A stretch of DNA of 64,000 bases. Origin: a virus. Within the stretch, counting starts at the first letter, position 1. Every line of letters begins with the position of its first letter. Positions 16,066 to 64,000 of this stretch are shown here, piece after piece. The notes beneath the pieces are model-generated. The model was not told where the DNA came from. It saw only the letters and a program-made list of their open reading frames with translations, and did not search any database. The position numbers were made by a program, and so were the translations under genes. The stretch is from the IMG/VR virus record IMGVR_UViG_3300042907_001193, positions 17,189 to 81,188 of that record; one strand, written 5' to 3'.

Positions 16066-17551
16066 TGTATTCCTTTTGTAATCCCGAAGATGGAAAAGAT
16101 TGTTCCCAGTTATTAAGTGCATAAGAAGCACAGCGGTTTTTTGCTCGTGTTTTAAATGTGTAATTAAACTGATCTAGGTAATCATGGACTTGCCCATAAG
16201 GTTTGTCCGCTGAAATTCTAGATACTCTACCAGGAATTTGAATGTCGTTAATAGGGCTACCGCCACCATCTGCCCTAATTAGAACAGCCAAACTGTTAAA
16301 GGAAACCCCAACATTCCATACAGTAGTGCATATGACTTTTTTAAGTATTCCCTTTTCAAAGTCTTGTGTCAGTTTTTGCCTTCTGTTTAAATCCATTAAA
16401 GGCTCATCTGCTTTGCAGAAACCTCCACGAGCATAGTGTGCCCGATCCATCTGACTTAACCCATTCTCCATGTATACTAAAGTAAAGTTTGGTAACTGTT
16501 TCTTTAGGTTAAAAGCATGTTCTATCGTCTCTACTGTAATTAATACCTGCGTATCGTCGTCATAGCGTTTAGCATCTTCTGCTATTCTTCGATTACGATA
16601 CTCGTTACACCAAATACCCTGCCGTTTCTTTTTTACATCTTCTGCGTCCATACATGGATCTTGATCCATCACCACAGAAGTCCATTGGACTTTAATAGGA
16701 ACCACCATGCTGGCAGACTGTGCTTGTGCGTAATTTACTTTAAAAATGACAGGACCAAACATGCCTAAGTTTCTAAAGTCTTTACCATCCCAACGAAGAT
16801 CATGCGATGCAGACAACCCAAAATTACGACTGTTCTGCCACCTTGCCAACTCACCAGAAGCTTTGTCCGCAGAAAGCTCATGACACTCATCCCCGATAAG
16901 GATATCCGCAGTAGCTGGGCTATGATGTAAGGAACCAACTGTATAACACATCACCCGCTTGCCCCGAACATTCTTAGTTCCACCTACAATGCCAACATCT
17001 CCTACCATCTGGCACAGCTCTGGGTAAATACGATCTCGTAATACAGATACCCGCTTGGTAACCACATCAATTTTTGTTCTTGGCAACAAAGAGGCAACTA
17101 ACCCAATCATGAAAGATTTACCGAAGCCGGGAGGGCAATCAAAACGACCGCAGCGGTTTGCTAAAACTTTATCCAGAAATTCCTTTTGATTTGCTCTAAG
17201 CTTATATTTGTTAATGTTCTGCCATTGTGGTTCTAACTTTTTAGGATCCATAGGGGATAGATCTTTAAATTGCACATCATATCCAGCTTGGGTAAGCGTG
17301 CTACGCAGCAGTTTCCAAAACCCATAGAAAGTCACAATGCGTTGTTTGTAATCGATATCCATAAGTGTGTGTTCTTGTACTTCTAATACAGAAAGACCTT
17401 GTTGCTTTCGCTCTTTTGCCTCGTAACCAAAATAACATTTTCGTTCTGTAAAACTTAAAACTGGCTTGAGCAACTCAAGCATGCTATCTGTCGTTGGGTC
17501 TAGATAAAGTGTATTCCCAGTCTTATATAATGTGACAATTTGTTTGTCCAT
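16049..17551 (-). CDS. SF2 DNA helicase (UvsW-like)
   Basis: 500 aa. Motif I is PPGFGKS (140-146), motif II is GDECHE (DECH box, 221-224), and motif III fits FGLSASHDLR. In the second RecA-like domain, TTVWNVGVSF and IQIPGRVSRI fit motifs V and VI. N-terminal to the motor is an about 115-residue domain, as in UvsW. T4 UvsW remodels forks and R-loops and works with the recombinase; the context with RecA-like and SbcCD genes agrees. Confidence 0.85.
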   Translation of the reverse strand: MDKQIVTLYKTGNTLYLDPTTDSMLELLKPVLSFTERKCYFGYEAKERKQQGLSVLEVQEHTLMDIDYKQRIVTFYGFWKLLRSTLTQAGYDVQFKDLSPMDPKKLEPQWQNINKYKLRANQKEFLDKVLANRCGRFDCPPGFGKSFMIGLVASLLPRTKIDVVTKRVSVLRDRIYPELCQMVGDVGIVGGTKNVRGKRVMCYTVGSLHHSPATADILIGDECHELSADKASGELARWQNSRNFGLSASHDLRWDGKDFRNLGMFGPVIFKVNYAQAQSASMVVPIKVQWTSVVMDQDPCMDAEDVKKKRQGIWCNEYRNRRIAEDAKRYDDDTQVLITVETIEHAFNLKKQLPNFTLVYMENGLSQMDRAHYARGGFCKADEPLMDLNRRQKLTQDFEKGILKKVICTTVWNVGVSFNSLAVLIRADGGGSPINDIQIPGRVSRISADKPYGQVHDYLDQFNYTFKTRAKNRCASYALNNWEQSFPSSGLQKEYNGKRI

Positions 17552-28377: not shown

Positions 28378-28590
28378 TTACTCCATTTCTTTGCTAATGA
28401 TTAATTGTGCTTCTTTGAAATCTTTTTTGGCTTGTTCAAGTACTACATTACGTATGTAGTCTCCCCAACGTATTTTTTTGTTAGCAGCAGCAAAAACTAT
28501 AAGAGCATACTGCACATGCGAAAAAATAAGTTTTATTGGTTTCTCTTGGTTTTTATCTGGTTTAGCTTTAACCGATTCGTTTTTCTTCAT
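28378..28590 (-). CDS. Small paralogous protein B, tandem duplicate of A (70 aa)
   Basis: Nearly the same layout as the downstream gene: YALIVFAAANKKIRWGDYIR and VLEQAKKDF. The N-terminus is basic and diverged. The two genes are 5 nt apart, which points to tandem duplication followed by divergence. Confidence 0.6.
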   Translation of the reverse strand: MKKNESVKAKPDKNQEKPIKLIFSHVQYALIVFAAANKKIRWGDYIRNVVLEQAKKDFKEAQLIISKEME

Positions 28591-28595
28591 ACTGA

Positions 28596-28784
28596 TTATC
28601 CTTTTAATGTAAGTAAATTAATTGAAGGTAAGTCTGCAGTTGCTGTAAACACACTTTCAAAATCTGGGCATAGCACTACACACTCATCTGTAATGCCGAG
28701 ACATCTTCCATCCTTTAGATGGACTACATCTACCATGACACCGCCTCCTGTGTCTTCGCTGGTTATTTTTTCTATGTAAGTCAA
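28596..28784 (-). CDS. Small protein with TTG start (62 aa)
   Basis: The best start is a TTG at 28784: AGGAGG lies 6 nt upstream. A longer ATG-initiated frame would overlap the upstream gene by 38 nt without an SD. The protein is beta-rich (GVMVDVVHLKDGRCLGITDE). Function unknown. Confidence 0.55.
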   Translation of the reverse strand: MTYIEKITSEDTGGGVMVDVVHLKDGRCLGITDECVVLCPDFESVFTATADLPSINLLTLKG

Positions 28785-28794
28785 TTTGTTCCTC

Positions 28795-29136
28795 CTAAGT
28801 AAGTTGGTTAAAAATGTCATCAAAAATACCATCAGGCCCTTCCATAGCTCTTATAGCATTAGATTGGCCTCCGCTCATTTCGTTCTCGTAATTTTCCCAG
28901 TTGTAGTCTGACCTACCCCCAAAGAACGATATGTTCTGATTTACAATTTTGCCTGAGCGTAGCTCGCGGTAGCATTCAAGGCATAAATAGTGGTAACGAG
29001 ACGTTCTTAATATTCTGACATCGGTTACAATGTCTTTACAACATGAGCACTCAAAATTATCACTAGAGCGAAGCACAGGTTTAACATCCATCTTAGGCTG
29101 CTCAACTACCACTCTATCCTTTTGTGCGGCGGTCAT
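28795..29136 (-). CDS. Zinc-ribbon protein of unknown function (113 aa)
   Basis: The middle part has CSCC and, 20 residues later, CLEC, a plausible single zinc site. The C-terminal half is polar and acidic. Its stop region contains the SD of the downstream TTG-initiated gene. Confidence 0.6.
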   Translation of the reverse strand: MTAAQKDRVVVEQPKMDVKPVLRSSDNFECSCCKDIVTDVRILRTSRYHYLCLECYRELRSGKIVNQNISFFGGRSDYNWENYENEMSGGQSNAIRAMEGPDGIFDDIFNQLT

Positions 29137-29139
29137 GAT

Positions 29140-29424
29140 TCATTCTCCGTGGTACTGAAACAAAACAGCGTTACAATGACAATGCACCGCACCGATGGTC
29201 ATTCCAGTGTCATGACAGTGATGCAAGTGTACAGGCCATCTAAAGAAGCCTAAAGGAAATAATTCGATGTCTATTTGTTTTTCCATTACTTTGCGAGCAG
29301 CAGCTTTATCAAGTGGCTCTTCGCAATAACTGCATTTTCCTTTTTGCTTGCTGATATACTCTTCACGCACTAATTTACGCTCTTGCCACGTAAGTTCTGC
29401 GTAGTCAACTGGGAGCTTCATCAT
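29140..29424 (-). CDS. HNH / endonuclease VII-like nuclease (94 aa)
   Basis: It has a CSYC zinc pair, then VHLHHCHDTGMTIGAVHCHC, matching the HNH/treble-clef core of recombination endonuclease VII-type proteins (HHxHxTGxxxGxxCxxCN). It should cut branched or double-stranded DNA. It is short, containing little beyond the catalytic core. Confidence 0.75.
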   Translation of the reverse strand: MMKLPVDYAELTWQERKLVREEYISKQKGKCSYCEEPLDKAAARKVMEKQIDIELFPLGFFRWPVHLHHCHDTGMTIGAVHCHCNAVLFQYHGE

Positions 29425-29435
29425 TATTCTCCTTG

Positions 29436-29717
29436 TTAGAGTTGTGAGTCAGCTACTTCGCTGCCTCCTAAGCTTCTTAGTTTGTCTTTCCAAACTCTGC
29501 CGTTGTATGACATATACCCTACAAGTTTGTTGTTTAGAAAGAGGGGGCAATCTCCCCAATTACCCCCGCCTAGACCTTCAAGCTCTTGCCATTCTTGGAC
29601 CTTTTCCCTTAGTTCTTTAATGGCATCGGCTTGCAGCTCTGTGTTTGCAATTTCTTCTTCTGGGTTTTGACCGTGGTCAATATTCCCATAAGCCGTAGCT
29701 TTAAGCTTCAACCGCAT
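29436..29717 (-). CDS. Unknown small protein (93 aa)
   Basis: Not recognised. Acidic, with a probable central helix (DAIKELREKVQEWQELEG) followed by beta strands. It overlaps the 102-aa gene by 17 nt. Confidence 0.55.
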   Translation of the reverse strand: MRLKLKATAYGNIDHGQNPEEEIANTELQADAIKELREKVQEWQELEGLGGGNWGDCPLFLNNKLVGYMSYNGRVWKDKLRSLGGSEVADSQL

Positions 29718-30009
29718 TTTCAGTCCTTTCTTTAATTTGTTTAAAGATGTTCATATCGCAATCCAAGAATACTCCTTTGCAATTGTGTCCAGTGATAATG
29801 ATGCACCTCATGTGCGGGGCTACGGAGTTACCCGCTGCATGCTCATGAATCATGCTGAAGCTAACTGGGAAGATAAAATCTTCTGGAAGTTCTGCTAGCA
29901 GCTCTGGGCTAAGTATTCGGTTGTACCCTCTACTGATTGCCAACAAGTTGGCTTTTAGTAGTTCGGGTTTAGTAAAGAAAGGTATGTGACTGTACGACTT
30001 AGTTTCCAT
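29701..30009 (-). CDS. Unknown protein at the distal end of the Trp-rich array (102 aa)
   Basis: The start at 30009 follows AAGGAG; the longer frame lacks an SD and runs into the array. Not recognised. It has an HEHAAG segment and a cysteine pair near the C-terminus. It begins 13 nt after the last array gene and is probably on the same transcript. Confidence 0.65.
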   Translation of the reverse strand: METKSYSHIPFFTKPELLKANLLAISRGYNRILSPELLAELPEDFIFPVSFSMIHEHAAGNSVAPHMRCIIITGHNCKGVFLDCDMNIFKQIKERTENAVEA

Positions 30010-30022
30010 TAGAATCTCCTTG

Positions 30023-30211
30023 TTAAAATTGTTGTGACCAATTTTCAGTTCCAGGTCTACCGATAGACCATAAATCTGAATACGCATTGTTTACAAATCT
30101 GGATTTTGACATTGCATTGAGATTACTCAACGACCAAATCCTATTTCTATTCCAAGCTCTAGCAGGGAGCTTAGCATCCCACCCACTTACCATATTTAGT
30201 CTTCTTATCAT
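30023..30211 (-). CDS. Trp-rich microprotein 17 of the array
   Basis: 62 aa, starting MIRRLN. Five Trp spaced 6-22 residues apart. It overlaps the previous member by 4 nt (ATGA), with tandem stops TGA-TAA in the upstream frame. It lacks the usual C-terminal Trp-Arg/Ser tail, as expected for the last member. No signal peptide or membrane segment. Function unknown. Confidence 0.8.
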   Translation of the reverse strand: MIRRLNMVSGWDAKLPARAWNRNRIWSLSNLNAMSKSRFVNNAYSDLWSIGRPGTENWSQQF

Positions 30212-30393
30212 CTGCTACGCCTCCAAACTTGAGACTGTTGCAGCATTCTACTCCAACTAAAATTCCACATACATCTATTAACCCAACTCTGCTGCTTCAT
30301 TGTTGATTTAAACCAGCTTTTACTGTTTGGGCTTGTAAGTCTTTGTCCGGTCCAGTTTTGAGAAAGTGCTTGTGTTTTAATTGTCATTCTCAT
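30208..30393 (-). CDS. Trp-rich microprotein 16 of the array
   Basis: 61 aa from an ATG that overlaps the upstream stop by 4 nt (ATGA), so I prefer it to a longer TTG start. It opens MRMTIK instead of MIRK. Six Trp. The end VWRRSR carries GGAG, the SD of the next gene. Basic overall. Confidence 0.75.
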   Translation of the reverse strand: MRMTIKTQALSQNWTGQRLTSPNSKSWFKSTMKQQSWVNRCMWNFSWSRMLQQSQVWRRSR

Positions 30394-30590
30394 TTTAACC
30401 AATTAAGTCCTTTCCAATAAGTAGTCCAACAATTAGACCAACATTCTGATCTAGTTAGATGTCCTATAGCTACAAAACCTTTCCAACTTACGGACCAAGC
30501 ATGAGCATTTTGAGAAGAATAACTCCAAGTTATAGCTTTTTTAAAAGAGCTAGATTGATCCGTTGGAAATGTATTGACTCTTCTTATCAT
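30390..30590 (-). CDS. Trp-rich microprotein 15 of the array
   Basis: 66 aa, starting MIRRVN; seven Trp, mostly preceded or followed by Ser, Thr or Cys. Start at the ATGATAAG junction with the upstream member. The end WKGLNWLK supplies AAAGGA as SD for the next gene. Confidence 0.78.
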   Translation of the reverse strand: MIRRVNTFPTDQSSSFKKAITWSYSSQNAHAWSVSWKGFVAIGHLTRSECWSNCWTTYWKGLNWLK

Positions 30591-30739
30591 TGGTAGCTTG
30601 CCCCCCGAGAAATAGTCCAACTTTTAGATCCCGATCTAAAGTTAGTCCAGCCCCAAGACCAGCCATTCCTAGGGGTCTTAGAAAGACAACTAGACTTAGT
30701 CCAATGTAAAGAGAAACCATTTATATTTTTTCTTATCAT
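30587..30739 (-). CDS. Trp-rich microprotein 14 of the array (shortest)
   Basis: 50 aa, starting MIRKNI, read directly from the sequence because it is short. Five Trp, including NGWSWGWTNF. TAATG overlap with the upstream member and ATGA overlap with the downstream one. The C-terminus (SRGASYQ) lacks the usual Trp tail; the SD for the next gene would be GGGGGG. Confidence 0.75.
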   Translation of the reverse strand: MIRKNINGFSLHWTKSSCLSKTPRNGWSWGWTNFRSGSKSWTISRGASYQ

Positions 30740-30954
30740 TACCTCCTCCTTCTAGGTGACGGCCAGAGTGCAACCCCATAGTCAGACCATAGGTGACGAT
30801 GCGCCCAGACTTTAGAGAACGCAGGACCAGAACCCCAGCCTCCAAAGAATGGAACACCAGGCCCTTTGGCAAGTGTTCCACCCCATGAAGACCAGACATA
30901 ACTATTATCCCAAGATCCGGTCCTAGCCTGTATTCTGGCTATTTTTCTTATCAT
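30739..30954 (-). CDS. Trp-rich microprotein 13 of the array
   Basis: 71 aa, starting MIRKIA; seven Trp and a glycine-rich middle, ending PSPRRRR. Stop and next start share one nucleotide (TAATG) behind AGGAGG. The 5' end overlaps the upstream member by 4 nt. Confidence 0.78.
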   Translation of the reverse strand: MIRKIARIQARTGSWDNSYVWSSWGGTLAKGPGVPFFGGWGSGPAFSKVWAHRHLWSDYGVALWPSPRRRR

Positions 30955-31163
30955 CGCTTAGTCCTCCAAAGCAAAGAGCGATGAGCGTGACAACCATTTA
31001 AAAACCAATGAGACCAACTGTACTCAAGTTGGTGTGAGTCCGTGGCAATCTCAGACCACATCGATTCACGGCTCCAAGACTCAGAATTAGTCCTTTCGTT
31101 TTTAGGTCCGAGTTTATTTGTTACCCAAGACTTAGATCCGGGCCATGTTGCTTTCCATATCAT
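30951..31163 (-). CDS. Trp-rich microprotein 12 of the array
   Basis: 70 aa, starting MIWKAT, a variant of MIRK. Eight Trp, mostly as SW or HW. The tail LLWRTKR contains the TGG-AGG codons that give the SD of the next gene. 4-nt overlaps at both ends. Confidence 0.78.
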   Translation of the reverse strand: MIWKATWPGSKSWVTNKLGPKNERTNSESWSRESMWSEIATDSHQLEYSWSHWFLNGCHAHRSLLWRTKR

Positions 31164-31339
31164 CTTCGGGTTCTCCAGCTATTTGAACGAAACCAAAGAT
31201 ATTCAGAAAAGATGCGGCACAAACCCCAACAGCCAGCAAAACTGTTTAAAGATGTTGACCAATGACTCAAATTAGTCCTAGACCTTTGTAATGCTTCAGT
31301 CCAGTTATTAGAGTTAGCAGTTATTCTATGCATTTTCAT
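31160..31339 (-). CDS. Trp-rich microprotein 11 of the array
   Basis: 59 aa from the ATG that overlaps the upstream stop (ATGA). It opens MKMHRI rather than MIRK. Five Trp and two Cys; the tail SWRTRR encodes GGAG for the next start. Confidence 0.75.
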   Translation of the reverse strand: MKMHRITANSNNWTEALQRSRTNLSHWSTSLNSFAGCWGLCRIFSEYLWFRSNSWRTRR

Positions 31340-31521
31340 TGAGCTGTTCTCCAAGAGTAGGAACGGTTGTACCATATGCCACTACCTACATCGCTGTGGG
31401 TGCGCTGGCGAAACCAGTTACCTGATTTTAAATCGTAATGATCCCATTGGTTGAACCATGAACATTTCTGTTCTCTGTTCCAAACAACAGATATGATTAC
31501 TACATTTGCTTTTCTTATCAT
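31336..31521 (-). CDS. Trp-rich microprotein 10 of the array
   Basis: 61 aa, starting MIRKAN; six Trp about 5-14 residues apart. The tail YSWRTAQ carries the embedded GGAG. ATGATAAG junction with the upstream member. Confidence 0.8.
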   Translation of the reverse strand: MIRKANVVIISVVWNREQKCSWFNQWDHYDLKSGNWFRQRTHSDVGSGIWYNRSYSWRTAQ

Positions 31522-31694
31522 CGAGAGCCCCTTCTCCAATCTCTAGACTTTTCCCAAGTATTAGTCCAAGACCCAGAATCATAATTAGACTTAAACCAAG
31601 ACCAAGACTCACGCCATTCTTCTGCCCAATCCCAAGATCTAGCACAACCCCGAGAAAAAGTCGTAGCAGTAGTACATTTTGTTTTTCTTATCAT
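31518..31694 (-). CDS. Trp-rich microprotein 9 of the array
   Basis: 58 aa, starting MIRKTK; eight Trp concentrated in the C-terminal two thirds (SWDWAEEWRESWSWF). The tail DWRRGSR carries GGAG. 4-nt overlaps at both ends. Confidence 0.8.
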   Translation of the reverse strand: MIRKTKCTTATTFSRGCARSWDWAEEWRESWSWFKSNYDSGSWTNTWEKSRDWRRGSR

Positions 31695-31858
31695 TTGTCG
31701 GTGCTCCAAGAATAAGACCAAGGCTCAGGCCAAGACCCAGATCCAGCCCAACGCATAGACTCTGACCAAGATTCAGACCAAGGCCCAGACCAAGACCAAG
31801 ACCTAGTCCAAGACACAGACCAAGACCAAGAACTAGCCTCATTTGTTTTTCTTATCAT
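31691..31858 (-). CDS. Trp-rich microprotein 8 of the array (most repetitive)
   Basis: 55 aa, starting MIRKTN, with 11 Trp (20%) in an almost regular Ser-Trp alternation (SSWSWSVSWTRSWSWS). The DNA is a degenerate TGG-TCT hexanucleotide repeat, so slippage or unequal crossover probably enlarged it. The tail SWSTDK carries GGAG. Confidence 0.8.
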   Translation of the reverse strand: MIRKTNEASSWSWSVSWTRSWSWSGPWSESWSESMRWAGSGSWPEPWSYSWSTDK

Positions 31859-32037
31859 ATATCTCCTTTCCAAGAGGAAGACTCTATAAAGTCCTCAGTC
31901 CATGCTCCACCAATACGCCATTCTTCTGACCAAAGATTAGACCATGTAGGCCAAGGTCTATACTTAGCCAAACACCAAGACATGTTCGTGTCCAAAGACC
32001 AAGAGAAAGATTGGCCAAAAGCTTTTCTTATTATCAT
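31855..32037 (-). CDS. Trp-rich microprotein 7 of the array
   Basis: 60 aa, starting MIIRKA (one extra Ile codon). Eight Trp. The tail SSWKGDI gives AAAGGAG as the SD of the next gene. 4-nt overlaps at both ends. Confidence 0.8.
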   Translation of the reverse strand: MIIRKAFGQSFSWSLDTNMSWCLAKYRPWPTWSNLWSEEWRIGGAWTEDFIESSSWKGDI

Positions 32038-32210
32038 CGGAAAGAACTCCAAGAATTAGATCTAATCTTTGGAAAGACCCACAGGTAAGACCAAGATTTT
32101 CCAAAAGGCGTAGCGGTAGATCTGTGCCAATGTCGTGTAAAGCAAGTTCCCCAAAAAGACAAGTCTGACCAATCTCTTGATCTGGGAATTACTAATGTTT
32201 TTCTTATCAT
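32034..32210 (-). CDS. Trp-rich microprotein 6 of the array
   Basis: 58 aa, starting MIRKTL, read directly from the sequence. Six Trp, ending NSWSSFR with GGAG in its codons. It begins one nucleotide after the upstream TAA (the only spaced junction) behind GGAG. Confidence 0.78.
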   Translation of the reverse strand: MIRKTLVIPRSRDWSDLSFWGTCFTRHWHRSTATPFGKSWSYLWVFPKIRSNSWSSFR

Positions 32211-32211
32211 G

Positions 32212-32394
32212 TTATCTCCATGCTATTCGCAGAATAGATAGGTTCCAGTTTCGTGCTCCCCATGTAATGCTGTAATGCCAGCGTCCGGGCCAGCCTAGAG
32301 ATCCGGAACCGGACAACAAAGACGCAGACCAGTACACAGACCCAGACCAGTTACGAGATAGTTTTTCAGGAGCTCTCGCTGTTCGTTTGATCAT
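32212..32394 (-). CDS. Trp-rich microprotein 5 of the array
   Basis: 60 aa, starting MIKRTA. Seven Trp, with a serine/glycine-rich middle. The tail RIAWR-TAA carries GGAG. 4-nt overlap with the upstream member. Confidence 0.78.
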   Translation of the reverse strand: MIKRTARAPEKLSRNWSGSVYWSASLLSGSGSLGWPGRWHYSITWGARNWNLSILRIAWR

Positions 32395-32591
32395 ATGTGG
32401 TGACTCCAAGATCTAGGAATGGAACCGACTACGAAGTTAGACCGAAGTCTGTTTTGAGGCCAGCACCCAGTGTAATTTTGACTAAAATGCCAGTTCCAAC
32501 TCCAAGTCTTGGGAAAAGGTTTAAGACGAGACCAAGAATAACCTTGAGACCAAGCTTCAGTTCGAGAGTATAGCAATGTTTTTCTTATCAT
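32391..32591 (-). CDS. Trp-rich microprotein 4 of the array
   Basis: 66 aa, starting MIRKTL (same first six residues as member 6). Seven Trp including TWSWNWHF. The tail RSWSHHI carries GGAG. ATGATAAG junction upstream. Confidence 0.8.
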   Translation of the reverse strand: MIRKTLLYSRTEAWSQGYSWSRLKPFPKTWSWNWHFSQNYTGCWPQNRLRSNFVVGSIPRSWSHHI

Positions 32592-32797
32592 GCGTTTGTA
32601 CTCCACGACTCGGACATAGGTATGTTTATATCCATCGCCACCCAAGCCCAACAATGAGACTCAAAATCAGTCCAAGACTCTGAATGTGCCTCAAAATTTG
32701 AATTTATACTATATCCCCAATTATCTAACCAAGATGATGATATATGTGCACTAACGTTCCAAGAGTTTGAACTCCTCCACGTTATTTTTCTTATCAT
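32588..32797 (-). CDS. Trp-rich microprotein 3 of the array
   Basis: 69 aa, starting MIRKIT; eight Trp, more acidic than most members. The tail ESWSTNA carries GGAG. 4-nt overlaps at both ends. Confidence 0.8.
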   Translation of the reverse strand: MIRKITWRSSNSWNVSAHISSSWLDNWGYSINSNFEAHSESWTDFESHCWAWVAMDINIPMSESWSTNA

Positions 32798-33003
32798 AAG
32801 TTATCCCTCCAATGCCAAGACTCGTGTCTATTTTTAACCCAAGCACCAGATCTACCCTGAGACTCGGGCCAAGAATAAGATTTAGCATACTGATGAGACC
32901 AAGCCCCACCCCAGCCACCTTGAGCTACAGTTGGCTTCCACTCAGATGTATCCCAATTCCCAGACCAAGACCCAGAACTTGCAAAATCAACACTTCTTAT
33001 CAT
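32794..33003 (-). CDS. Trp-rich microprotein 2 of the array
   Basis: 69 aa, starting MIRSVD; nine Trp. Glycine-rich centre (GGWGGAWSHQ). The tail SWHWRDNL carries GGAGG. ATGATAAG junction upstream. Confidence 0.8.
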   Translation of the reverse strand: MIRSVDFASSGSWSGNWDTSEWKPTVAQGGWGGAWSHQYAKSYSWPESQGRSGAWVKNRHESWHWRDNL

Positions 33004-33182
33004 CGGTATTCCCTCCATGCTGTGGTGGAAATAAATTTAGTGTGAGACCAACTACTTGACCAAGGTCTACCTAATCTATCAGAGGAAAAAACCATACCTT
33101 CTGTTCTGTAAGTGCCGCAAGTCCAACTATTGGTCCAGAGCAAAGCTCTGGACCATGGAGGAATAGATTTTATTATTCTCAT
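33000..33182 (-). CDS. Trp-rich microprotein 1 of the array (promoter-proximal)
   Basis: 60 aa, starting MRIIKS; six Trp. It has its own strong SD (AAGGGGAG) and begins 14 nt after the stop of the 105-aa gene. The tail TAWREYR carries GGAGG for member 2. Confidence 0.78.
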   Translation of the reverse strand: MRIIKSIPPWSRALLWTNSWTCGTYRTEGMVFSSDRLGRPWSSSWSHTKFISTTAWREYR

Positions 33183-33196
33183 ATGCACTCCCCTTG

Positions 33197-33514
33197 TTAT
33201 GCATCCAAGGGAGCGAAGCACCAGCGTGGCTGATATATGATTTCCACTGCACCTAGGGAAATCACAACAGAGGAGCCGATTGGATCCTCGGTGTTAGGTT
33301 GTTCTTGACTAGAAGCACCCGAGGTCTCCACTGCCCTAGCTTGGGCCAACACCAAGCAGTCATCAGCTACATGGCTGAGGATGCCACGGTAGTTGTAGCG
33401 GGCACAAAGCACCGCAACGGGTTGACCCAAGAATTGCTGAGCAATACTGGCCATGTTGCCAGCAAGGGTGCCATCGATATTTACCAAAGTTACTTTGTTC
33501 TTTACTTTTGCCAT
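33197..33514 (-). CDS. Small-barrel-like protein heading the array operon (105 aa)
   Basis: Not firmly recognised. The core QPVAVLCARYNYRGILSHVADDCLVLAQA and the C-terminal strand AVEIIYQPRW have the short, strongly bent strand pattern of Sm-like small beta barrels. That is inference. The SD is AAGGAA. It lies downstream of a terminator and upstream of the 17 Trp-rich genes, so it is probably their first co-transcribed gene. Confidence 0.62.
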   Translation of the reverse strand: MAKVKNKVTLVNIDGTLAGNMASIAQQFLGQPVAVLCARYNYRGILSHVADDCLVLAQARAVETSGASSQEQPNTEDPIGSSVVISLGAVEIIYQPRWCFAPLDA

Positions 33515-33552
33515 AATACTAATTCCTTAATATAAGATTGATTCCAACGAAA

Positions 33553-33577
33553 AAGGGAGCAGACATTCTGCTCCCTT
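33553..33577 (-). terminator. Intrinsic terminator before the array operon
   Basis: AAGGGAGCAG pairs perfectly with CTGCTCCCTT (5-nt loop) and is followed on the minus strand by TTT. It separates the 108-aa gene from the array operon, so a promoter for the array should lie at about 33515-33552, where TTATATTA is a possible -10. Confidence 0.85.
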
Positions 33578-33611
33578 AGGTAAACTAAATAACATTAATA
33601 CCGACATCGAC

Positions 33612-33938
33612 CTAGTCTGCAACTTTGCGTTCACGCTCTGCGTTGAGCGGATCATACTCTCTTTGTCTAGTGACACAGACCCAGCTGTTAGCTGGCAAGC
33701 GGATGTCCGAATGCTCGTCGTGTCCGACTACTGTTTCTTCTTTAGAAAAGAGATAGATATCTCCTTTCACATTTACATAACTTTCGACCTCGGGCCCAGT
33801 CCTGATGGCATGACTGTGACCAGTCACTTCTCCGAATGCAAGAATCCTAGATTCGTGCTTTTTCATATCTTTAAGATCCTTTGGCTTAGCCACGGTCTTA
33901 AAGAAAATATCACCCTGACGACTTTGAAAATTCCGCAT
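33612..33938 (-). CDS. Conserved protein with GHSHAI motif (108 aa)
   Basis: The order RQGDIFF, ILAFGEVTGHSHAI, GHDEHSDIRLPANSW and VTRQREYDP matches a small protein family I recall from phages and bacteria; no function is established. The repeated histidines could bind metal in a cupin-like fold. Confidence 0.7.
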   Translation of the reverse strand: MRNFQSRQGDIFFKTVAKPKDLKDMKKHESRILAFGEVTGHSHAIRTGPEVESYVNVKGDIYLFSKEETVVGHDEHSDIRLPANSWVCVTRQREYDPLNAERERKVAD

Positions 33939-33957
33939 GATAGCTCCTTCGTAAAAG

Positions 33958-34554
33958 TTAAGATTCCTGTGAAGGCTGGTACTTGTCAGCCTTCATGTAA
34001 TTCGTCCATGCTACTGCTTCCAAACATGTCTTCATGGTTGGCGGTACGCATAAGAAGTAGTTCTTAAATGTACCATCGGGTTCTGCAGTCGAGTTTACTA
34101 CCTTGACATACAAGGTAGGCTCGGTGAAAACCCTTGGGATTTCAAACAGAATCCTTTCTCTTCCAAACTGATCCACATCCTTGTGGATAATTTTAGTAGT
34201 AGGTAGGGCCATGATTTTGTCTAACCCTATGACCTTCATCCCTACATATCTTACCTCCGTATTTGGGTTTCGCAAGACTTCTTCCAACAAAACCGTTTCT
34301 GGCTTGGTAAAGAAGTGCGGAGGAATGCGAACTCCTTCGTAATAATACAGGATGCTGCCGAACTTGTCGGCATCCATTCCATGTTGTTGACCATTCTTGT
34401 ACCAGATGATTCTGGTAGGGGAGATGTAGGCTGGACCATTGTCACAATGGAGCCTACCATCCTCGTTCAAGATTCGTTTAAGTGGCCCAAACCCAAACTC
34501 TCCATTAAAGAATTTGAGTCTGGAAGTCCACGCTTCATATCCTTGGTTTTTCAT
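33958..34554 (-). CDS. DUF6745-like protein (198 aa)
   Basis: The start at 34554 follows AAAGGAG. The N-terminal half contains LHCDNGPAYISPTRIIWYKNGQQHG, a toxin-immunity-like W-NG-H motif. The C-terminal half (MKVIGLDKI, IHKDVDQFGRERILFEIP, VVNSTAEPDGTFKNYFLCVPP, AVAWT) matches DUF6745 as I recall it. In bacteria that domain is of unknown function. An aspartate/glycine-rich pocket is likely, but no enzyme can be named. Confidence 0.72.
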   Translation of the reverse strand: MKNQGYEAWTSRLKFFNGEFGFGPLKRILNEDGRLHCDNGPAYISPTRIIWYKNGQQHGMDADKFGSILYYYEGVRIPPHFFTKPETVLLEEVLRNPNTEVRYVGMKVIGLDKIMALPTTKIIHKDVDQFGRERILFEIPRVFTEPTLYVKVVNSTAEPDGTFKNYFLCVPPTMKTCLEAVAWTNYMKADKYQPSQES

Positions 34555-34565
34555 TCCAACTCCTT

Positions 34566-35279
34566 TTAGGTATGAATGCTCCACAGTGCGTTTGTCTCAA
34601 GAGTCACGCTGAAGGTTTCACCAGACCCTGGTCCATGATAGATGAGCCCACCATTGTACCCATAGGTATAATACTGGCTATATCTGTATGCGTTTTTAAA
34701 TGCATACTCGGTCAACACTTGAGAGTACCCTTCATTCAAGTGAACTTTCTCGGTGATCTTGAGTTCTTCAACAACCTTCTGATGAGGGTTAATAACTCCT
34801 GCTTGGGCATGCTTGTTAAAGCAATCCCAATAGATTTCCGATCTAAGCGGGAAGTATGCAGAGAAGCTGAAACTGTGTAGACAACCATCGTCATGTAGGA
34901 TGACTTTCTGCTTAGGTACACCAATAGTCACTGGGTCTTTATCTTCTGGACCAAACAACACTTGCAGCTCTATCCAGCTTGGATCGGGCAACTCTGCGTA
35001 TGGTGAAGTGCTACTGTGGGTGAGATGTGCCATTTTAGTAAAGAAGCTTTCGGCTAACTTCTCTGCAGTGTCGGTTTTCCCCGCATGGTACATTGCAAGG
35101 ATATACCCTGCGATAGAACCTAAGCGAGTTTCTCCATGCTGCGTGAAGTACGCCTTGCCTTTCCAGTGTTCTGCGAGTCCATGCAGATACCTATTTAATT
35201 TGGTGTTAAGTATTTCTAAGCAGTCTTGGCCATAAGTTTGCAATCCTAATTCACTTACTGGGCTTTTTAAATCACTCAT
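34566..35279 (-). CDS. Unknown protein upstream of the DUF6745 gene (237 aa)
   Basis: Not recognised. Helical N-terminal third; the remainder is beta-rich, ending in tyrosine/glycine-rich segments (YSQYYTYGYNGG). It is followed 11 nt later by the DUF6745 gene, so the two may act together. Confidence 0.65.
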   Translation of the reverse strand: MSDLKSPVSELGLQTYGQDCLEILNTKLNRYLHGLAEHWKGKAYFTQHGETRLGSIAGYILAMYHAGKTDTAEKLAESFFTKMAHLTHSSTSPYAELPDPSWIELQVLFGPEDKDPVTIGVPKQKVILHDDGCLHSFSFSAYFPLRSEIYWDCFNKHAQAGVINPHQKVVEELKITEKVHLNEGYSQVLTEYAFKNAYRYSQYYTYGYNGGLIYHGPGSGETFSVTLETNALWSIHT

Positions 35280-35574
35280 CGTTATTCTCCTTTTTGAAAG
35301 GGGTTATTTCTGTAAGATGTTTTTCATAATATTTTTCATCTTCTTCATCATCATCTTCTGGTTCATTGTGATCTTTAAACTGCATTAGCTTTTCCATCAC
35401 ATGCTCTTGTCTCGCCTCCCAACGCTCTATGTTACAGCCTTCCTGTGGGTTGCTTTCAAGAAAAGCTCGCATCCTATCCACATAAAATCTAATGGATGTT
35501 CTAATAAAATCTCTTTCCCAGTGTAGGAGCAAATTGGGATTGTCATAAACTGGCTTGCTGTTATCACTCATCAT
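35272..35574 (-). CDS. Unknown acidic helical protein (100 aa)
   Basis: The start at 35574 has AGGAGG 6 nt upstream; an adjacent ATG at 35571 is equally usable. Helical, with an EPEDDDEEDEKYYEKH acidic patch near the C-terminus. It overlaps its neighbours at both ends. Confidence 0.6.
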   Translation of the reverse strand: MMSDNSKPVYDNPNLLLHWERDFIRTSIRFYVDRMRAFLESNPQEGCNIERWEARQEHVMEKLMQFKDHNEPEDDDEEDEKYYEKHLTEITPFKKENNDE

Positions 35575-35974
35575 CTTCTTCCTCCTCATTTTCGTTTTCG
35601 TTCTCAGTCTCTATTTCGATAGAAACTTCTGGGTCTGGATCAAGGTCTACTCTTTCCATCATCCACGATGAAACAGATGCTTTCATCGTTTCTAGGTTGT
35701 AGGTAACATCGTCACCATAGTCGTTGCCGTCACCGGCACCGCTGTACTGGTAAGCATCAAATGCCCATGTCTCCACATCTGTTTCTAGTTTACTCACCCT
35801 CTGTTTTCTCTTAACAATCTTAACTAGATCGTCTGTCTTGGGTGCCACTAAAACTACATACAGATTCCCTTCGTCATTTCCTCCACGAAACTCAAGTTCT
35901 ATGGAACTTATTCCTAGTTCTTTTGCTTCATCATAAAGCTTTTTGGGTAGCGGAATAGGACTCAAATCTGACAT
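35564..35974 (-). CDS. Unknown protein with acidic repeat tail (136 aa)
   Basis: A folded alpha/beta N-terminal part is followed by a tail of alternating Glu/Asn and Glu/Asp (ENENENEEEEDDE), which also encodes the SD of the next gene. Function unknown. Confidence 0.6.
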   Translation of the reverse strand: MSDLSPIPLPKKLYDEAKELGISSIELEFRGGNDEGNLYVVLVAPKTDDLVKIVKRKQRVSKLETDVETWAFDAYQYSGAGDGNDYGDDVTYNLETMKASVSSWMMERVDLDPDPEVSIEIETENENENEEEEDDE

Positions 35975-35987
35975 AGCTTCTCCTTAG

Positions 35988-36335
35988 TTAGTTATCGCAA
36001 GTTTCATGTTTGTTAGTTGCAAATTGTGCTATGACATCAACATAGCCTGCGTTTGGATCTACATCGTTATGCCAAACGGCATTAACGAACCTCAGACCGC
36101 AAGAGTGTTCAAACCAATATTTAACATGAGCAGACAAGCTTTCGCCTGAAGAAGCTTCTACTCTGTTATCGTAGTTGTTGCGAAAGAAATCTGCTTTTAC
36201 CTCGTCCATAGCAAGGTAAATCTTATGGCAGCCATCCCATGCTGCTAAAATTGCGTTTTTGCAATATTCCGGAAGGGCATCATAGCCTTCATCTATGTCG
36301 TCAGAGTTGTGCACTCCATACTCATTTTGATCCAT
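35988..36335 (-). CDS. Unknown protein (115 aa)
   Basis: Not recognised. Acidic N-terminus, then a helical centre and a beta C-terminus with an AVWHNDVDPNAGYVDV segment. Confidence 0.6.
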   Translation of the reverse strand: MDQNEYGVHNSDDIDEGYDALPEYCKNAILAAWDGCHKIYLAMDEVKADFFRNNYDNRVEASSGESLSAHVKYWFEHSCGLRFVNAVWHNDVDPNAGYVDVIAQFATNKHETCDN

Positions 36336-36346
36336 GTTCGTTCTCC

Positions 36347-36706
36347 TTAGTTAATTTTTAAATCACTTTCAATACTTTTCTTAGCTACCCTAAGCATCCA
36401 GTCTTTAGGGTTTTCTAAAATAGGTTGAAGCCAATCTTGGACTGTTGGGATGAACCCACAATCTTCTTCTACATGTTGCTCTGCAAGCGACTTGATTGGT
36501 ACTTTCTTTTCTTCGCTGTTGCGAAGCGTGCTGCCAAACTTCTTCACTGCCCATTCCACGCCTGCAGCATGATGGCGCAAAGCTCGATGAGTCCAGTTGC
36601 CTGTAAAGGCTTTAGTCTCATCAAACCAGTTGTGCAGTTCGAGGTAGTCTTCTGGTAAGCCACCAAATTTCTTAGCGGAGCTTACCGCATGATGGTAAGG
36701 TGTCAT
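36347..36706 (-). CDS. Unknown protein (119 aa)
   Basis: Not recognised. Helical, with several His and Trp (ALRHHAAGVEWAVKKFGS). A metal site is conceivable but unsupported. It directly abuts the 101-aa gene. Confidence 0.6.
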   Translation of the reverse strand: MTPYHHAVSSAKKFGGLPEDYLELHNWFDETKAFTGNWTHRALRHHAAGVEWAVKKFGSTLRNSEEKKVPIKSLAEQHVEEDCGFIPTVQDWLQPILENPKDWMLRVAKKSIESDLKIN

Positions 36707-63717: not shown

Positions 63718-64000
63718 CTACAACCCGCCAAAACTACTAGCGATTATAGTGTTAGAGGCTCCGGCAGCTCCAGCAGCTCCGGTAGGTCCAGTGGCTCCGG
63801 TAGGTCCAGTGGCTCCGGTTGCTCCAGTAGGTCCAGTGGCTCCGGTTGCTCCGGCTGTTCCGCTAGCTCCGGATGCACCGGGATCTCCGGTTGGTCCGGG
63901 TGGTCCTTGATCTCCAGTAGCTCCGGTTGCTCCGGCTGTTCCGCTAGCTCCGGATGCACCGGGATCTCCGGTTGGTCCGGGTGGTCCTTGATCTCCAGTA
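63718..64000 (-). CDS. Partial collagen-like fibre protein
   Basis: Read directly from the sequence in the frame ending at the TAG at 63718-63720. Gly-X-Y triplets run the whole visible length ([19 protein letters not shown]), and the end is [13 protein letters not shown]. The 5' part is beyond the window. Collagen-like triplets form triple helices and are common in phage tail fibres. The + strand frames in this area are shadows. Confidence 0.85.
63841..64000 (-). repeat. 81-bp tandem repeat in collagen-like gene
   Basis: The unit starting TCCGGTTGCTCCGG at 63841 recurs identically at 63922 and continues to the end of the window, a period of 81 bp or nine Gly-X-Y triplets. Confidence 0.9.

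Follow-up and report, generated by a model that had tools for sequence, protein, structure and literature searches.

The 64,000-nucleotide (nt) stretch analyzed here (the window) covers positions 17,189 to 81,188 of the IMG/VR virus record IMGVR_UViG_3300042907_001193, an 81,188-base contig; an identical terminase is also found on longer contigs, of up to 178,753 bases. Its large open reading frames (ORFs) show family matches to phage terminase, DNA polymerase, an SbcC-like protein and methyltransferase, and in the terminase the identity to the nearest cultured phages is just 27-30%. At positions 30023-33182, the minus strand carries an array of tryptophan-rich small genes, namely 17 genuine protein-coding genes of 50-71 amino acids (aa) that all point the same way and are arranged for translational coupling (Table 1). 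An independent gene chain gave the same 17 consecutive ORFs and the same 119 Trp among 1055 residues (11.3%) as the original prediction. The near-zero spacing described there was likewise recovered: all 16 junctions are tight, with 14 4-nt ATGA overlaps and the remaining two at -1 and +1, whereas 100 first-order Markov shuffles averaged 0.52 tight junctions and never exceeded 3. In the orthologous arrays of other phages the frames are intact, without the scattered frameshifts and stops that would have argued against genuine genes, and the overlap type is identical.

Relatives were found via terminase and junction-pattern searches, and genes outside the window were called with a simple script. 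The array-bearing contigs are all metagenomic and include phages B (3300032232), C (3300027782), D (3300027976), E (3300032233), F (3300021963) and G (3300042938), giving about 125 array members. Similar arrays are present and conserved in related large phages, and arrays of a comparable kind occur in more distant ones as well; the gene content differs from phage to phage. Matches to a profile of 83 members are confined to these arrays, with none in four terminase relatives (partial contigs), and a profile search for array homologs in viral contigs returned nothing beyond the same contigs. No homolog of array subfamily A3 was identified in cellular genomes, and tblastn of two members against cultured-phage DNA gave nothing significant. 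The members have no match in Pfam, PHROGs, PADLOC or the PDB, in line with the earlier statement that no such family has been described, and no enzyme motif was found in them. A search of the open-access literature on DUF6745 (see below), Trp-rich phage arrays and variable tetrapeptide repeats yielded nothing relevant. The strong divergence among members was borne out; in an iterated profile search most clade members fall into one family, with a caveat on composition.

Tryptophan in these proteins is under very strong purifying selection and the remaining residues are weakly constrained. Between orthologous arrays Trp is kept at 144 of 146 positions (A/B), 142 of 143 (A/C) and 180 of 190 (E/F), where a fraction of 0.58-0.66 would be expected. 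The pooled omega of the orthologs is 0.40 (A/B), 0.57 (A/C) and 0.59 (E/F), or 0.47-0.67 with Trp excluded, and neighboring genes mostly show 0.01-0.15, with one comparison at 0.35. Val, Ala and Leu are among the less conserved residues. The TGG codon is retained at a frequency of 0.95-0.99 in frame, compared to 0.33-0.67 out of frame, and the TCT preceding a kept TGG was retained in 35 of 48 cases and changed in 13. As TGG is kept in frame and not out of frame, and the TCT before it is not specially conserved, it is the amino acid Trp that is selected, and a DNA motif as the cause of Trp conservation is ruled out. The diversifying selection put forward originally is not supported by these values: the pairs with omega above 1 are scattered and rest on few synonymous changes, and we found no evidence of positive selection for any site class.

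The tryptophans are also regularly spaced; neither their even distances, nor the 10-residue superperiod, nor the link to DUF6745 formed part of the original prediction. Among 61 members with less than 50% mutual identity, Trp-Trp distances are even in 677 cases and odd in 159 (137:45 in the window alone), compared to 69:73 in ordinary proteins of the same phages. The distances peak at 4, 6, 10, 14, 16 and 20, and only even periods clearly exceed those of shuffles, with 10 as the best (a 10-residue superperiod). Relative to Trp, the residues Ser, Ala, Thr and Cys occur at odd offsets and Arg, Lys and Glu at even offsets, SxxW and SxSW motifs recur, and 83 aligned members have a Trp register in common.

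The alternation extends to synonymous bases, since Gly is encoded by GGG or GGA at Trp-parity and by GGT or GGC between. On the minus strand of 30023..33182 the hexamer TCTTGG occurs 30 times (1.3 expected, 23-fold), and base identity within the array is raised at lags 6, 12, 18 and 30; in L102 the lag-6 identity is 0.60. Young members are nearly pure TCT-NGG hexanucleotide repeats, with TGG (100), GGG (61), AGG (21) and CGG (16) at Trp-parity and TCT between. From the alternation at synonymous bases together with these near-pure young members we infer hexanucleotide-repeat birth, in which members would start as (TCT-NGG)n coding for Ser-[Trp/Gly/Arg] and would later degenerate while retaining Trp. 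In addition, L102 contains five near-identical copies, which point to recent tandem copying. Old duplications, as originally proposed, are therefore an incomplete account of the array.

The shared termini of the members are largely junction signals. The common Trp-Arg/Ser C-terminus noted in the original prediction is real, and it is explained by the Shine-Dalgarno sequence of the next gene being encoded in the 3' end: the ribosome-binding site TTGGAG reads in frame as Trp-Arg/Ser, and a TGG lies 14 bases upstream of the next ATG in 60 of the 81 overlapping junctions. Similarly, the MIRK start (ATGATAAGAAAA) is indeed common to members, but its DNA also supplies the preceding gene with a tandem stop, TGA-TAA, in 61 of the 81 overlaps, the conserved start ATGATAAG being the source of the in-frame TGA-TAA for the upstream array gene. 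Array gene 17, which is followed by an ordinary gene, has no TTGGAG-type C-terminus. Since the signal that initiates a gene lies within the unit before it, units could come and go with translation left intact. Such whole-gene gain and loss is seen exactly at start codons: arrays A, B and C keep the same gene order apart from insertions or absences of entire genes, and the end of window gene 3, which runs into gene 4, leads in phage B directly into the start of gene 5.

Upstream of the array lies a conserved trio of genes, encoding a short DUF6745 protein and proteins of 108 and 105 aa (Table 1). All clade arrays have the DUF6745 and 108-aa genes in their neighborhood. In the array-less relatives L106, L107 and L011 the two genes flanking the block were still found, but the array and the DUF6745, 108-aa and 105-aa genes were not. 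The 105-aa protein has weak similarity to DUF6897/DUF2642, below the cut-off. A strong terminator-like hairpin lies between the 108-aa and 105-aa genes, and each of the seven arrays (window, L099, L101-L105) has a corresponding hairpin, with changed pairs, at this place. As it separates these two genes, the array probably has a transcript of its own that begins with the 105-aa gene. No known RNA was found in an Rfam search of 28500-36500, and a promoter scan gave fewer promoter-like sites than in shuffles. A search with the 108-aa gene led to more distant phages (L146, L155) with comparable Trp/Ser arrays whose members start with MILK, MIFR or MITR; at six such loci the Trp-Trp distances are even:odd 181:42. 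In L103 and L104 (phages E and F), Trp-rich genes are interleaved with the cassette, between the 108-aa and 105-aa genes, and one of these contains a long hairpin, TATAACTGGAGC..GCTCCAGTTATA.

Table 1. Array genes, neighboring features and repeat-containing proteins on other contigs.
Feature	Coordinates	Strand	Remarks
Array gene 1	33000..33182	-	60 aa; starts MRIIKSIPPWSRALLW; orthologs in L099, L101, L105
Array gene 2	32794..33003	-	69 aa; ATGA overlap; relatives B06, C08
Array gene 3	32588..32797	-	69 aa; ortholog B08, 90% identical
Array gene 4	32391..32591	-	66 aa; missing in L099
Array gene 5	32212..32394	-	60 aa; orthologs B09, C12
Array gene 6	32034..32210	-	58 aa; sole +1 junction; orthologs B10, C13
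Array gene 7	31855..32037	-	60 aa; Trp register as in E30/F30/G10 of other phages (alignment A2)
Array gene 8	31691..31858	-	55 aa; 20% Trp; "young", with visible hexanucleotide/30-nt repeat
Array gene 9	31518..31694	-	58 aa; relatives in L104 too
Array gene 10	31336..31521	-	61 aa; ortholog B14, 97% identical, omega 0.05
Array gene 11	31160..31339	-	59 aa; orthologs B15, C21
Array gene 12	30951..31163	-	70 aa; ortholog B17
Array gene 13	30739..30954	-	71 aa; 91-94% identity, among the best-conserved members
Array gene 14	30587..30739	-	50 aa; no ortholog found in L099, L101
Array gene 15	30390..30590	-	66 aa; orthologs B20, C23
Array gene 16	30208..30393	-	61 aa; no ortholog found in L099, L101
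Array gene 17 (last)	30023..30211	-	62 aa; ends NWSQQF; orthologs B21, C24
105-aa gene (trio)	33197..33514	-	directly upstream of array; omega 0.01-0.04
Terminator-like hairpin	33553..33577	-	11 pairs, T-rich tail
108-aa gene (trio)	33612..33938	-	RQGDIFF..GEVTGHSH..GHDEH..; omega 0.04-0.06
Short DUF6745 protein (trio)	33958..34554	-	198 aa; no internal repeat; Pfam PF20530, E=3e-23; omega 0.02-0.05
12-nt repeat proteins, DUF6745-like or similarly placed	L163:6264-7655; L170:2925-4175; L172:6362-7549; L182:6303-7049; L189:6674-7288; L200:5295-6455; L202:5125-6429		

On about 10 contigs the DUF6745 protein is longer (390-464 aa where complete) and contains a 12-nt repeat in which a single residue varies: W/G/R/E, from the codons TGG/GGG/AGG/CGG/GAG, or, in one contig (L170), residues encoded by NRT; this variable codon resembles a variable-residue code. 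Contigs with 99.9% identity upstream have the repeat in different copy numbers, a difference that could also stem from assembly collapse. Comparable internal repeats are present in the DUF6745 protein (PF20530) UOF77368 of phage MW202476, as a 4-residue repeat (SSL[WGRE])n, and in that of the Woesearchaeota contig JACPBN010000014.1, as (SQV[ERGW])n. The array resembles these proteins in its variable W/G/R(/E) residues from NGG(/GAG) codons, in the even spacing and in the Ser within the unit, and the neighborhood is partly shared, with a homolog of the 108-aa gene nearby in metagenomic contigs. In contrast to the nearly pure 12-nt repeat inside one long protein, the array has a 6-nt base unit, is distributed among many individual, overlapping genes and has diverged strongly except at Trp. 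No array is present on contigs that encode a long 12-nt-repeat DUF6745 protein, array contigs encode the short, repeat-free form, and no contig has both. In cellular genomes the 108-aa gene gave two loci. On the Streptomyces cadmiisoli plasmid NZ_CP030074.1 (L201), DUF6745 and an RQGDV homolog of the 108-aa protein adjoin STM4012-STM4015, a radical S-adenosylmethionine (SAM)/hydrolase cluster of unknown function, and on Deinococcus plasmids DUF6745 adjoins STM4011. Near-pure hexanucleotide repeat ORFs were also observed near the 108-aa gene at L163:10127-11035 and L200:4200-4496, coding for [YSD]G repeats and, depending on the frame, for E[QRW] or [AV]G repeats.

Taken together, we tentatively favor, at somewhat below an even chance, a repeat-born array with whole-gene turnover that would act as the variable partner of the DUF6745/108-aa/105-aa cassette in multivalent Trp-mediated assembly or binding. 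The array might represent the detached and expanded counterpart of the W/G/R/E repeat inside the longer DUF6745 proteins. Its proteins would serve as multivalent "stickers" through Trp: in an extended chain with beta-type alternation, one face would bear the Trp and the other Ser or small residues; this is the weakest step. The members may co-assemble or, together with the cassette proteins, bind a host or phage target, rather than act as enzymes. Multivalent assembly or binding is the simplest fit to fixed Trp and free spacers, even spacing, co-translated paralogs and a fixed cassette. More broadly, and with similar reserve, we propose a possible undescribed class that combines a conserved DUF6745 cassette with a variable Ser-[Trp/Gly/Arg] repeat component in phages and apparently in bacteria and archaea, and that in this clade may have become a gene-birth array giving a Trp-ladder repertoire.

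Several observations weigh against this explanation. Structure prediction, which had been suggested for single and mixed members, gave no confident fold in either of two AlphaFold2 runs (predicted local distance difference test, pLDDT, 51 and predicted template modeling score, pTM, 0.33 with 7 sequences; pLDDT 53 and pTM 0.13 with 83); this failure agrees with disorder or with assembly, and proves neither. The first base of NGG shows no visible hypermutation (2 of 13 Trp changes in orthologs), and odd-length indels between orthologs do occur. The alternation can be a leftover of the hexamer origin, rather than a selected beta pattern. Many contigs with a short DUF6745 protein hold only 0-3 Trp/Ser-rich small genes. 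Finally, the proposed link between the array and the DUF6745 repeat consists of codon pattern, neighborhood and mutual exclusion, is confounded by phylogeny and comes without alignable homology.

Alternatively, each member could be a small folded beta protein, a tight solenoid with stacked Trp ladders and a turn of about 10 residues, directed at one specific host target, so that the array would be a repertoire of inhibitors, for example against defenses. The 10-residue superperiod, the even periods, the common register of the 83 aligned members and the Trp spacing conserved across paralogs (alignment A2) would suit such a fold, and the turnover in gene content resembles that of anti-defense loci. 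However, both AlphaFold2 runs fail, the aliphatic residues typical of a core (V, A, L) are among the less conserved, PADLOC gives no match and positive selection is not evident, and we consider this explanation unlikely. A hexamer-lattice DNA repeat, selfish or structural and without protein function, would account for the alternation of synonymous sites and the enrichment of TCTTGG, but it is already largely refuted by the frame-specific constraint: the frames stay open with exact overlaps, omega is below 1, and TGG is retained in frame while the TCT before it is not specially conserved. We regard it as scarcely credible.

The composition itself might suggest cationic peptides, rich in Trp and Arg, that inhibit or lyse the host by acting on its membrane, as the mean net charge of 127 members is +4.9, with 11% Trp and 9% Arg. 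Yet the charge ranges from -6 to +11, with 3 of the 17 window members neutral or negative, and members of 50-85 residues are long for such peptides. Moreover, 17 coupled membrane-damaging copies would be hard to tolerate before lysis, and the conserved spacing and the DUF6745 link are left unexplained, making this role improbable. Precursors resembling ribosomally synthesized and post-translationally modified peptides, with variable cores modified enzymatically on Trp or Ser, could be envisaged from the radical-SAM clusters (STM4011-STM4015) that bacterial DUF6745 genes adjoin on the Streptomyces and Deinococcus plasmids. No radical-SAM gene (PF04055) was found in the eight phage records searched, several of them partial, the leader region would be at most about four residues, and Trp is conserved over the whole length and not in a core; we therefore consider such precursors very improbable.

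Known systems resemble the array in part. The midge antifreeze protein is a tight 10-residue solenoid, and designed tryptophan zippers have alternating Trp on one beta face. The array has the 10-residue period or the alternating Trp in common with these, but differs in having no PDB sequence relation, disulfide pattern, predicted fold or hairpin parity. Arrays of small accessory genes in phages, involved in host takeover and anti-defense, are short, overlapping and co-directional with a high turnover, and consist mostly of unrelated genes. The layout and turnover are the same here, but the array consists of a single family with patterned Trp, which apparently arose from a repeat and whose ends are encoded by the junctions. 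Cationic antimicrobial peptides such as indolicidin are rich in Trp, Arg and Ser/Gly, as are the array proteins, which differ in being longer, not uniformly cationic and patterned in their spacing.

All stages of gene birth seemingly occur side by side in these arrays, from near-pure repeats (L102, window gene 8) through partly decayed members to old ones that only their Trp spacing still makes recognizable, which lets birth, fixation and constraint be measured. The constraint is unusual in that one residue type at alternate positions is near-invariant while others drift, and it allows a direct test of pattern versus sequence in low-complexity proteins. Our analysis also draws attention to the conserved DUF6745/108-aa/105-aa cassette, which together with a variable W/G/R/E repeat occurs in cells as well as in many uncultured phages.

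With respect to the supply of Trp by a phage tRNA, no tRNA was found in the window. Six records yielded one tRNA gene in all, located approximately 2 kb from the phage E array (G008:51855-51926), with none in the other five. At the far end of the window (63758-64000), 27/81-nt tandem repeats are present, which on the minus strand read as collagen-like Gly-X-Y and probably belong to a tail fiber.

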